NCBI GenBank assembly: GCA_016290195.1
Contig: JAEETF010000038.1
Span: 1 to 36,271 of the forward strand
From: Bacilli bacterium
GTDB taxonomy: Bacteria; Bacillota_I; Bacilli_A; RF39; UBA660
Direction of reading: 5' to 3'
DNA: 36,271 nt
The translations under genes were made by a program, and so were the position numbers. The notes under the pieces were generated by a model, which made no database searches, had not been told where the DNA came from, and was given only the letters and a program-made list of their open reading frames with translations. This document shows positions 23,421 to 32,652 of the stretch, one piece after another; the first letter of the stretch is position 1, and each line of letters starts with the position of its first letter.

Positions 23421-23502
23421 GGTATGTAGAGCCTCACTCTACAACCACACAGAAGAGGTTTAAAAAAATTACCTCAATGGTGAGTCTTAGTTAAAAGGAG
23501 GT
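23421..23502 (+). ncRNA. L21 ribosomal-protein leader
   Basis: The transcribed leader has a gtagag/ctctac hairpin (23426-23442), a gaggt/acctc hairpin (23455-23475), and a gtgag (23480-23484) that can pair with ctcac (23433-23437) in and next to the first loop, making a pseudoknot. Position before rplU and the TAGAGCCT...GTGAGTCTTA elements fit my memory of the Firmicutes L21 leader (Rfam L21_leader). It probably allows autoregulation by L21. A covariance-model search was not possible here. Confidence 0.75.
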
Positions 23503-29141: not shown

Positions 29142-30260
29142 ATGGAAAAAGCAAAAACAGCAATAATTGTTGTATTGATGTGTATCATTACTGGAATTAC
29201 TTCAATATATATCTATAAGAAGTATGATAAAGCTAATGAAGACATTAAGAAAGATAGTGAAAAGAGAACAGAAAATAATACACAAAAGGGAAATAATACT
29301 GTAACACCAAGCAATAACAATAGTGGAAGTACTGAAACTGAAAAAGTAGTTGTCACACCAACAGAAAGTGTAGTTACACTAAATGTTGAAGTTAAAAACA
29401 ACAGATTTTATGTAAATGGTAATATGGTTGATTTTTATACTCCATCAGAAGTTCGTGCTAATAATAATGTACATTCTGAAGATGAATTCTATTGTAATGG
29501 AACTGAAAAAACTGGTTATAGATATGAACAAGTAGGTGATGTTTTATTTGTTCAAGTAGAACCATGTAATACAATTTATATTACTGAAAATTATTTTGTA
29601 GATGCAACTGGAAAAATATTAAAGAAAGTAAATGGATATCTTCCAGATATTACTCTTAGTACAACTGATCCATTTATTGAAATTGCTAAAATTACTGATA
29701 ATTCAATTTATTTAATAGTTAGAGATACAGGAATTATTTTAGGTTCAGAACAACCGGTTTGTGACAGAATTGCTGCTGGTAAACAAGAAGATATAGCTAG
29801 ATATGTTGATAAAATAACATATGAAAATGGAGAATTTACTGTAGAATATGCTGTTGATAAGACAACATTTGCACAATATCGTGTTATACGTAAAATAAAT
29901 TGTCCAGATGTAGTTGCTGATTATGGTAATTCAAAAGCTGTAGAGGGAACAACTGATGAAGTTGCTGCTATTAAAGATAATAAATTATTAATTTTGAATG
30001 ATAAAAATGAAGTACTTTCAGAACTTGCGACTTTAGATTCCAACAATTATGAAATATATAGTGCTAAATTTATTAATACTGATGATAAATTATGTAAGGT
30101 TTCAAATGCAGGTACATATATCTTCTTAAGTAAAAGAGTAACAAATGGTAATGGTGAAAAAGTATATGCTATCTATTATAATGGAAAATATGGTACTCAT
30201 TCAGAATTAACTGAACAAGATGCAACAGGTGCTTTTGGTAATTTAGTATCATGTAAATAA
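29142..30260 (+). CDS. Membrane-anchored extracellular protein of unknown function
   Basis: 372 residues. One N-terminal helix (about 5-25) without a clear cleavage site is followed by a Lys/Glu and Asn/Ser/Thr-rich linker (about 27-80) and a globular extracellular part (about 80-372) that I do not recognise. This part is beta-rich and contains several cysteines (YCNG, EPCNT, QPVCDR, INCPDV, KLCKV, final LVSCK) which may form disulfides. It has its own promoter and terminator, so it is monocistronic. It lies directly upstream of the OLE RNA unit but is not cotranscribed with it unless the terminator is read through. Confidence 0.7.
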   Translation: MEKAKTAIIVVLMCIITGITSIYIYKKYDKANEDIKKDSEKRTENNTQKGNNTVTPSNNNSGSTETEKVVVTPTESVVTLNVEVKNNRFYVNGNMVDFYTPSEVRANNNVHSEDEFYCNGTEKTGYRYEQVGDVLFVQVEPCNTIYITENYFVDATGKILKKVNGYLPDITLSTTDPFIEIAKITDNSIYLIVRDTGIILGSEQPVCDRIAAGKQEDIARYVDKITYENGEFTVEYAVDKTTFAQYRVIRKINCPDVVADYGNSKAVEGTTDEVAAIKDNKLLILNDKNEVLSELATLDSNNYEIYSAKFINTDDKLCKVSNAGTYIFLSKRVTNGNGEKVYAIYYNGKYGTHSELTEQDATGAFGNLVSCK

Positions 30261-30261
30261 A

Positions 30262-30285
30262 AGAACTTTTTAGTTCTTTTTTTGT
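30262..30285 (+). terminator. Terminator between the exported protein gene and the OLE unit
   Basis: aagaact/agttctt stem with a 4-nt T loop followed by T residues. Confidence 0.8.
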
Positions 30286-30313: not shown

Positions 30314-30342
30314 TTGACAAATTTAAAAAAATATGATATGAT
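30314..30342 (+). promoter_or_regulatory. Near-consensus promoter of the OLE RNA-oapA unit
   Basis: TTGACA at 30314-30319, 17-nt spacer, TATGAT at 30337-30342, predicting a start near 30349. It is one of the strongest promoters in the window, which suits an abundant structural RNA. Confidence 0.85.
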
Positions 30343-30348
30343 GTTACG

Positions 30349-30930
30349 CGGAAATGGCGCATTATTCTAGTCGACCATTTTACTATGAAGACAGGGCTAA
30401 AAAACTGTTAAAGAGCATATCTGTGAAGCCTCTGGTGCTTGCTTCTTACGCCCAGTTTGGGGTGAGTGCTGGTTGATAGGAATGTCTGGGCGAGCGTAAT
30501 GGCATACGTATCCGACCCACCATTTGGGAGACCTATTATTGTGGTGAGCCTATACACGAATAGTTGACGGACTTATTACGAAATGGGATTAAACCTACTT
30601 TGTGGCGAAAGCTATGGGTAGTGTAGCTTGTCTTGAGTGATATGCGGGGATAAGTAGTTCTATATATGTTGTTTGGCCGAATAATATATATACTGTACTT
30701 TGAAACGTATGTTGCAAAAAAGAACTAATAGTAAAAAAGTCGGTGGGGAAATCCCCTAGAGTGTATTATTACATAGGATTGCAGTGTGTACTAAGTGGCA
30801 ATCAAGTCATACAATTGGCAACAATGTATTGTTTCTTTTAAAGGGGAACCACATATTTGGTAACGAATATGTAAGAAACAGGGAAATCCTATCTTGACCT
30901 AAGACGCAAAGTTAACTATGGCAATAGGCC
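30349..30930 (+). ncRNA. ole: OLE RNA (ornate, large, extremophilic RNA)
   Basis: About 580 nt without a useful ORF, much richer in G and C than the flanking intergenic DNA, starting just after a strong promoter and ending 25 nt before oapA. Helices found by eye: aaatgg/ccattt (30352-30380), ttacg+cccag/ctggg+cgtaa with a 4-nt bulge (30446-30499), aagcta/tagctt (30609-30629), tagttct/agaacta (30655-30727) enclosing tatatat/atatata, gattgc/gcaatc (30777-30803), acatatt/aatatgt (30851-30872), and a 3' domain with cctat/atagg and ttgac/gttaa (30888-30928). The 3' segment GACCTAAG..CTATGGCAATAGGCC fits my memory of the OLE consensus. OLE forms a membrane ribonucleoprotein with OapA that matters for stress and Mg2+/energy adaptation in Bacillus halodurans. 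The OapA-like gene directly downstream is the strongest support. Confidence 0.88.
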
Positions 30931-30939
30931 ATTTTTTTT
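30918..30939 (+). terminator. Weak terminator-like hairpin at the OLE RNA 3' end
   Basis: atggc/gccat stem with a 5-nt loop followed by seven T. It uses bases that otherwise pair in the 3' helix of OLE, so it may release the RNA from the oapA mRNA in part of the transcripts. The short stem makes this uncertain. Confidence 0.4.
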
Positions 30940-30954
30940 AATTAAGGAGTTATA

Positions 30955-31545
30955 ATGAGAAAGAATAAAGAGATACTTAATTTATTGAATTTAACAAATA
31001 AAAAAGAAAAGAAAATAAAAAGACTGATTGATTGGAAATGGATTATTAAAATTCTAATAGTTGCTTTTTCTATATCACTTGCATTTTCATTTATAGCTGA
31101 ATTAACAATACCAAATGTTAATATAGCAATTGGTATAATACTTGTTATAACCTTTATCATTATAGGTGTTATATTTGATATGATTGGTGTTGCAGTTACA
31201 GCAGCAGATGAAAAAATATTTAATTCTATGAGTGCTAGAAAAGTAAAAGGCGCACGTCTTGCTGTTATTTTTAAAAAAAGTGCTGATAAAGTTTCATCAT
31301 TTTGTAATGATGTAATAGGGGATGTATGTGGAATTATTTCTGGTTCTGCAGGTGTTATTATTGCTACTTCAATTGCTAACAGATTTAATTTTAATTCACT
31401 TTGGACATCACTTATTATTACAGCAATTATAGCTGCATTAACAATAGGGGGTAAAGCAATTGGTAAAAGTTATGCTATAAATAAAAGCAATGTTATTTTA
31501 TATAGATTTGCAAAATTTATATCACATTTTAAGAAAGAAAAATAA
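30955..31545 (+). CDS. oapA: OLE-associated membrane protein OapA
   Basis: 196 residues with a basic N-terminus and four predicted helices (about 29-50, 55-80, 125-142, 149-168). Between helices 2 and 3 is the highly conserved core FDMIGVAVTAADEKIFNSMSA, RKVKGARLAVIF and SFCNDVIGDVCGIISG. In this core Asp119-x3-Asp123 and Gly126 match the DxxxD motif and the glycine whose mutation inactivates OapA in Bacillus halodurans (D104 and G111 there, same spacing). Such proteins are often mislabelled as a Mg2+/Co2+ transporter CorB. OapA binds OLE RNA and brings it to the membrane. ATG 30955 follows AAGGAG; transcription is expected from the OLE promoter. Confidence 0.9.
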   Translation: MRKNKEILNLLNLTNKKEKKIKRLIDWKWIIKILIVAFSISLAFSFIAELTIPNVNIAIGIILVITFIIIGVIFDMIGVAVTAADEKIFNSMSARKVKGARLAVIFKKSADKVSSFCNDVIGDVCGIISGSAGVIIATSIANRFNFNSLWTSLIITAIIAALTIGGKAIGKSYAINKSNVILYRFAKFISHFKKEK

Positions 31546-31559
31546 TCTTTCTTTTTTTT
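31531..31559 (+). terminator. Terminator of the OLE-oapA unit
   Basis: aagaaag/ctttctt stem around the oapA stop codon region followed by T residues. Confidence 0.75.
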
Positions 31560-31612: not shown

Positions 31613-31694
31613 GTAGGTGTAAAGGAGATGATACATGATTAATATAAATTAAATGAATTAAATAATTAAAACAATAAATGTTAATATAAATTAA
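31613..31694 (+). other. Intergenic stretch with micro-ORF and 14-bp direct repeat
   Basis: A strong AAAGGAG (31621 region) precedes ATG 31635, but the ORF is only five codons (MININ, stop 31650-31652). The 14-mer ttaatataaattaa occurs at 31639-31652 and again at 31681-31694, the second after another ATG. It could be a leader peptide, a remnant of a lost gene, or chance in AT-rich DNA. No larger gene is seen in 31560-31719. Confidence 0.3.
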
Positions 31695-31705: not shown

Positions 31706-31736
31706 ATAAAAAAAACTTTCTAATCAGAAAGTTTTT
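31706..31736 (-). terminator. Terminator of rnhC
   Basis: aaactttct/agaaagttt stem with a 4-nt loop; on the minus strand it is followed by a T-run (A residues at 31708-31715). It includes the rnhC stop codon. Confidence 0.75.
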
Positions 31737-32652
31737 CGGCATTTTTAAAATTCATTTTAGCTATTTCTTTTAACTTAGAAATACCATATTTTTCTTTTAT
31801 AGTTTTAGCAACTTCATCAACTGCAGTTCCCGCACCTTTTGGTAAGAACATATCAAGACTTTGTCCTAATTTGTCAAATTCTTTTATAAATATAAACCTA
31901 CTAATCATAGATGCACACGCAACACTTAAGCATTTATCTTCAGCTTTTGTTGTAAAAGTAATACCACGACATACTTCTTTCGAATCCCTAAGATAACTAT
32001 AATAAACAAACTCCTTGGCAAATTGGTCAACAACAATATAGTCTGTATTATGATATTGTTTAGCAAGTTCAATTAAAACTTTGTTATGAAGAATAGCTTT
32101 AATTTTATTCATATTTAAATCCTTTGAATAAAAATTATTATACTCTTTATTAGTTAAGATGAAACTTTTATATGGAATTCTTTTAATAATTTTTGGTACT
32201 ATTTCCATAATTTTCTCATCAGTTATTTTTTTAGAATCTCTTACTCCTAATTCTTCTAGAAAAGGAATATCTTCCTTCGTAACATAACTGCTAGTAACAA
32301 CAATAGGGCCAAAGAAATCCCCAGTTCCAACTTCATCAGAACCAATAGTAGTAGCATTATATAATTTTTTATCAATAGGATTTTCTTTTTTTTCTTTTGT
32401 TTCTTTTTTCTCTTTTTCTTTAATTTCTTTACCTGGATTTAAATGCCTTTCGAGTTCTTTCCACATATTCGCATCTATATCAGCACTTACTCCTTGAAAA
32501 ACCATAGATCCTGATTCATATAAAGTTACTACAGTATCTTCTTCATCAGCTTGAAAAATCGCATATTGTGGTGTTTTTTCACGTTTTTTATCTTGAAAAT
32601 ATTCAATAGCTTTTTGTTTAGTATTTTCACTTACTTTAAATGATATAGTCAT
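31720..32652 (-). CDS. rnhC: Ribonuclease HIII
   Basis: 310 residues. The N-terminal TBP-like substrate-binding domain (about 1-75) is followed by a Lys/Glu-rich linker (about 76-95) and the RNase H core. TTIGSDEVGTGDFFGPIVV gives Asp106-Glu107; RDSKKITDEKI, IVVDQF and SVACASMISRFIFI give the remaining RNase HIII motifs. It removes the RNA strand of RNA-DNA hybrids. The N-terminal domain and the DE rather than DEAG motif separate it from RNase HII. AGGAGG precedes ATG on the minus strand, with a TAAAAT -10 a little upstream. It is divergent from cvpA; in Bacillus rnhC is also close to cvpA. Confidence 0.93.
   Translation of the reverse strand: MTISFKVSENTKQKAIEYFQDKKREKTPQYAIFQADEEDTVVTLYESGSMVFQGVSADIDANMWKELERHLNPGKEIKEKEKKETKEKKENPIDKKLYNATTIGSDEVGTGDFFGPIVVTSSYVTKEDIPFLEELGVRDSKKITDEKIMEIVPKIIKRIPYKSFILTNKEYNNFYSKDLNMNKIKAILHNKVLIELAKQYHNTDYIVVDQFAKEFVYYSYLRDSKEVCRGITFTTKAEDKCLSVACASMISRFIFIKEFDKLGQSLDMFLPKGAGTAVDEVAKTIKEKYGISKLKEIAKMNFKNAEKLSD

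Follow-up and report, generated by a model that had tools for sequence, protein, structure and literature searches.

A full-length OLE RNA and oapA in a compact locus of an RF39/UBA660 Bacilli bacterium

OLE RNA and OapA in the Window

A genuine, full-length OLE RNA was confirmed in the window (the whole stretch of 36,271 nucleotides that was analysed, contig JAEETF010000038.1), and a gene encoding an OapA protein follows it on the same strand. We put the probability at about 0.93 that this locus is a stand-alone two-gene unit making an OLE ribonucleoprotein (RNP), with a dimerizing RNA, OapA binding and a role in stress. What the analysis demonstrates directly is the RNA family match, covariation, the promoter pattern, the adjacency of RNA and gene, the OapA motif and predicted fold, the co-occurrence of RNA and protein, and the family-wide absence of OapC. 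OLE RNA is among the largest bacterial noncoding RNAs, and we know of no biochemical function for it. Fernando and Breaker (2024, PMC11332333) had already described OLE from genomes of RF39 and TANB77, most of which lacked OapB and OapC. The window is a new example of this published RF39-type occurrence and not the first. In the literature search, no report on OLE in Tenericutes was found, and for RF39 PMC11332333 was the only one.

Table 1. Coordinates of the OLE locus in the window and of the mini-OLE loci in related genomes.
Feature	Position	Strand	Remarks
Putative exported protein gene	29142-30260		Upstream neighbour
Promoter TTGACA-N17-TATGAT, sigma-70/sigma-A type	30314-30342	+	TG ahead of the -10 box; predicted RNA start about 30349
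-35 box TTGACA	30314-30319	+	Followed by 17-nt spacer
-10 box TATGAT	30337-30342	+	
OLE RNA (RF01071)	30338-30948	+	Whole-model match, model 1-616; predicted transcript about 30349-30939
P4 loop CUAAAAA	30397-30403	+	Covariance-model alignment; contact role from PMC12265935
P5.1 loop GCCCA	30450-30454	+	Kissing partner of P6.1; model alignment; PMC12265935
P6.1 loop UGGCAU	30500-30505	+	Kissing partner of P5.1; model alignment; PMC12265935
P7 and P8 hairpins	30532-30623	+	Approximate limits; model alignment; alignment pairs 205-277, 284-316
P9 loop GGCC	30675-30678	+	Symmetrical kissing loop; model alignment; PMC12265935
Hairpin ATGGC-AATAG-GCCAT	30918-30932	+	With T-run to 30939; terminator-like OLE 3' end; called by pattern scan
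SD AAGGAG of oapA	30944-30949	+	
oapA	30955-31545	+	196 aa, predicted four-helix membrane protein
rnhC	31720-32652	-	Downstream neighbour
Mini-OLE	L118:4001-4378		oapA adjacent
Mini-OLE	L119:4001-4381		oapA adjacent
Mini-OLE	L225:3016-3393	-	

Identity and Structure of the OLE RNA

The RNA matched the Rfam covariance model of OLE from end to end with a score of 384.7 bits (E 9.7e-110), the gathering threshold being 50 bits. An earlier note made from the sequence had proposed OLE for a GC-richer, highly structured region of about 580 nt without an ORF, and this description was borne out. The GC content of the OLE RNA was 39.8%, against 25.0% for the window and at most 33% for all other 591-nt stretches, and the ORF list of the window contained no ORF of at least 60 aa overlapping the RNA. 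The minimum free energy had a z-score of -3.3 compared with shuffles. Compensatory changes were found in 85 of 151 predicted pairs in an alignment of 25 family OLEs that was folded independently of Rfam. The only other RNA match in the window at the gathering score was an ordinary ribosomal protein L21 leader (RF00559, 48.3 bits) at 23433-23497 (+), ahead of the L21 gene.

Cryo-EM of a clostridial OLE placed the RNA dimer contacts in the P4, P5.1/P6.1 and P9 loops (PMC12265935), and the published bS21 site on OLE is P6 (PMC12054373). Since the model match includes the P4, P5.1, P6.1 and P9 loops, all published dimer loops are present in the window at the sequence level. Both strands of the 3' domain (5' and 3') and the GGNNAC hairpins were matched as well. 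The RNA shares P4, P5.1, P6.1, P7, P8, P9, the 3'-domain GGNNAC hairpins and a downstream oapA with the full-length RF01071 OLE of Halalkalibacterium halodurans and Clostridia. It differs from them in its AT-rich stems, its own promoter and its two-gene arrangement, and in a genome with no OapC and no visible OapB. OLE commonly, though not by definition, belongs to a long operon that also holds isoprenoid genes, recN and the like, and a long OLE operon is reportedly present in H. halodurans.

Promoter, Termination Signals and Neighbouring Genes

The promoter described in the earlier note was found at the start of OLE, and its position was conserved: a promoter with at least 10 of 12 matches was located there in 86 of 97 family loci, compared with 107 of 1940 random stretches (5.5%). 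The exported-protein gene and rnhC that had been named as flanks were both confirmed. The claim that the unit is bounded by terminators held for the 3' end of OLE, where the scan supported it, while the two flanking terminators (about 30261-30285 after the upstream gene and about 31530-31558 after oapA) are AT-rich, were visible by eye and were not called by the pattern scan. The 3' arm of the OLE hairpin probably doubles as the 3' strand of P1. This arm may equally well pair with the 5' end of the RNA, and formation of P1 and termination may then compete. The ATG of oapA lies 15 nt past the T-run that closes the OLE RNA. Between oapA and rnhC, at 31620-31652 (+), a strong SD (AAAGGAG) is followed by a five-codon ORF, ATG ATT AAT ATA AAT TAA.

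OapA Protein

As the earlier note had stated, oapA encodes a four-helix protein of the OapA type, and the window protein contains SFCNDVIGDVCGIISG. Its DxxxD is invariant and its predicted fold is CNNM-like. Residues D75, G78, D119, G122, D123, G130, K167, A168 and K171 were invariant in 97 family OapA sequences. The DxxxD corresponds to D119 and D123, which were also invariant in an alignment of 22 sequences. AlphaFold, given 22 sequences, predicted helices at residues 27-51, 57-83, 110-144 and 148-176 (pLDDT 87). The best six PDB fold matches were all CNNM/CorB/CorC transporters (MtCorB and CorC; probability 0.98-1.00, TM 0.45-0.54), and 7m1t, 7m1u and 7cff were among the best matching entries. 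The H. halodurans OapA was also reported to match MtCorB (PMC11332333).

Searches of Pfam and NCBIfam with the window OapA alone gave nothing significant and did not reach Pfam CNNM, and the OapA profile matched no sequence in the PDB; the fold search alone succeeded. Pfam CNNM was weakly matched (E at most 0.01) by 17 of 22 relatives of the window protein. With the CNNM/CorB/CorC transporters it shares a helical membrane domain of CNNM-like predicted fold and, through its relatives, the weak Pfam match, but it has no CBS or CorC/HlyC domains, and the DxxxD is not a CNNM feature (PMC11332333).

Homologues of OapA, which the earlier note had proposed to search for, were found in Clostridia and Bacilli. 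The protein profile picked out fifteen loci in genomes that carry a name, and these loci were scanned for OLE. OLE was present just upstream in 14 of the 15 (378-507 bits), and the fifteenth, L122, was without OLE. The OLE-linked relatives include Oscillibacter sp. ER4 and an Agathobaculum, with identities of about 40%, and further Clostridia. The upstream OLE at these loci therefore identifies the protein as OapA independently of the RNA in the window.

The family OapA carries a basic N-terminal tail (median 28 residues, net charge +7), which is about 5 residues long in the clade with P7/P8-less and mini-OLE forms. Whether the tail was lost in connection with P7/P8 was considered, and such a link was rejected; the cases fall mostly in one clade and give only 3 independent pairs, and the association was not significant.

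Distribution in the Family and Partner Proteins

The host genome has 1.13 Mb in 88 contigs and is 89% complete, and many members of the class that were sampled have single-contig genomes of 0.7-1.3 Mb. Relatives with names were mostly gut MAGs labelled Bacilli, Tenericutes, Mollicutes or Erysipelotrichaceae bacterium. The lineage of the window, GTDB order RF39 and family UBA660, was described as genome-reduced Bacilli from animal guts (PMC13155120), and the host is an uncultured, genome-reduced and probably gut-dwelling bacterium. This agrees with the earlier description of a compact unit in a genome-reduced, host-associated-looking lineage, the unit having its own promoter. OLE was found in 98 of 145 family genomes and OapA in 97 of 141. 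The case is hence not a rare one, as roughly two of every three family genomes carry OLE and RF39 OLE was published in 2024 (PMC11332333). When 392 genomes sampled across the phylum were searched, 14 OLE matches were obtained, all within the family of the window. OLE is known elsewhere in Bacilli too.

The earlier note had suggested looking for OapB and OapC genes elsewhere in the genome. OapC/YbxF (PF01248) was found in none of 22 family genomes. OapB was probed indirectly, by a Pfam KOW search and by gene position: practically all KOW matches above the cut-off were proteins the size of L24 and NusG, and no KOW gene was present between map and infA, which are adjacent in the genome of the window and between which an OapB-like gene would be expected in Firmicutes. 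At 89% completeness, the lack of OapB or OapC in a single genome is weak evidence, whereas absence across the family gives real support. bS21 was encoded in 15 of 15 genomes, including that of the window.

A strong MpfA-type CNNM protein was encoded in 6 of 141 family genomes (loci L211-L216), five of which were OLE-positive, so OLE-negative members are mostly without both. In this family MpfA is thus apparently no substitute for OLE, and its scarcity in OLE-negative genomes limits the published idea of MpfA replacement.

Linkage, Inheritance and Alternative Explanations

The sets of OLE-positive and OapA-positive genomes coincided except for G034 and cases at contig ends. In 97 loci OLE was followed by an OapA homologue in the same orientation, at a distance of at most 250 nt in 89 and of 0.5-3 kb in 8. 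The tight linkage, the promoter and the terminator-like hairpin between RNA and oapA would fit an OLE RNA that acts solely in cis, as a long leader of oapA such as an attenuator or riboswitch, but we consider this very unlikely. The 0.5-3 kb gaps, together with G003, in which OLE and oapA are on separate contigs, indicate that OLE is more than a mere leader. G034 has a 359-bit OLE at L224:2077-2679 (-), and OapA was not found anywhere in this 93% complete genome. A terminator-like element was detected at just 27 of 101 family loci, in an incomplete custom search that overlooked the hairpin of the window, which the pattern scan did call. In addition, the OLE described in the literature functions within an RNP (PMC12265935). 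Conversely, orphan OapA genes without OLE were considered in G085, G087 and G112 (second copy) and rejected, all being at contig ends; OLE 3' sequence was recognised in G085 and is apparently visible in G112.

The earlier note had proposed that the unit either moved or persisted through genome reduction as a module of its own. The idea of a persisting module fits: a long isoprenoid/recN-type operon around OLE was absent family-wide in the flanks, which extended to at most 4 kb and were often cut by contig ends. Leaving aside oapA and the spurious frames within it, each neighbour family occurred in 13 loci at most, and rnhC, cvpA and trxA adjoined OLE in the window only. The unit therefore has no fixed address in the family. 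Such unshared flanks could suggest that a recent horizontal transfer inserted the unit between rnhC and the gene of the exported protein, which we consider very unlikely. In 23 genomes, RpoB distance correlated with that of OapA (r 0.49) and of OLE (r 0.47), and OapA with OLE (r 0.77), with 0 of 2000 permutations as high in each case. RpoB was not found in the incomplete assembly of the window. For G062, which belongs to the same genus, the nearest relatives were largely identical by RpoB, OapA and OLE, and its OLE was the closest to that of the window (82% identity). Because OLE is present in 98 of 145 genomes, OapA shows the same pattern and both distances track RpoB, inheritance appears to be mostly vertical. 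Mostly vertical descent, with the neighbourhood rearranged, explains the data better than transfer does, and the unit can be said to have moved only in the sense of a chromosomal rearrangement. The reduced genome, the shortened OLEs of other family members and the roughly one third of members without OLE might also point to a decaying relic in a shrinking genome. We regard this as very unlikely too, given that the conserved OLE blocks, dimer loops, promoter and an intact oapA are all kept and that the compensatory changes extend across the family.

Proposed Function of the Unit

For the preferred reading, a stand-alone OLE RNP unit, we propose the following sequence of events. Transcription of the OLE RNA would be driven by its own sigma-A type promoter and, as the hairpin and T-run suggest, would largely stop at the 3' end, with read-through yielding the oapA mRNA. 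By analogy with the cryo-EM structure of clostridial OLE, the RNA would fold and dimerize through the P4, P5.1/P6.1 and P9 loops. By analogy with published work on H. halodurans, it may then bind the four-helix, CNNM-like OapA to form a membrane RNP, and this RNP may help the cell under Mg2+, cold, alcohol or similar stress. It would work without OapC and, as far as visible, without OapB, bS21 being the only other known partner found. A bare unit of OLE and OapA, with shuffled neighbours and graded RNA sizes, separates the RNP core from its accessories and suggests that OLE can in places do without the operon context, OapB and OapC.

Size Variants and Mini-OLE

An approximate division made here by length and motif spacing placed 96 family OLEs in four classes: 65 full, 6 with short P9, 23 without P7/P8 and 2 mini. 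OLE variant 2, which is without P7/P8, is common in RF39 (PMC11332333). It apparently comes from the same clade as the window OLE, and OapB and OapC are likewise largely missing, but P7/P8 are kept in the window and in about two thirds of the sampled OLE-positive family genomes. The published bins were scored with another model and therefore do not map one-to-one onto the classes made here. The forms without P7/P8 and the minis were mostly found in one OapA clade, which holds 21 of the 23 former and both of the latter (SH-aLRT 95).

Mini-OLEs of 378-381 nt were observed in three genomes (G106, G035 and G520) of two closely related genera, and no published report of such a form was found in the literature search. 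They scored 134-139 bits, below the 235-bit cut of PMC11332333, though that cut belongs to another model. In the alignments, model positions from about 74 to 281 are missing, as is the greater part of P9; P4, the 5' strand and the complete 3' domain are kept. In G106 and G035, oapA starts 4 nt past the end of the OLE model. The fold of a single mini-OLE was weakly better than that of shuffles (z -1.9). The lost features, P5, P6, P7, P8 and the P9 arch, comprise the published OapC k-turn site, the bS21 site and three of the four dimer contacts. We lean slightly towards a stepwise shrinkage of OLE in this family that ends in mini-OLE as a new form, with the window at the unreduced end. In the mini-OLE relatives, what stays together with OapA seems to be domain 2 and P4. 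If mini-OLE is functional, the irreducible OLE would consist of domain 2, P4 and OapA, and domain 1, which was resolved by cryo-EM, would be largely optional.

A second OLE was observed in G025 (L117:3946-4414), where it is cut by the contig end. Its 5' part (GUGGUGCA...CUAGU, P4) has diverged and P5-P9 are kept; decay after duplication or contamination may account for this copy.
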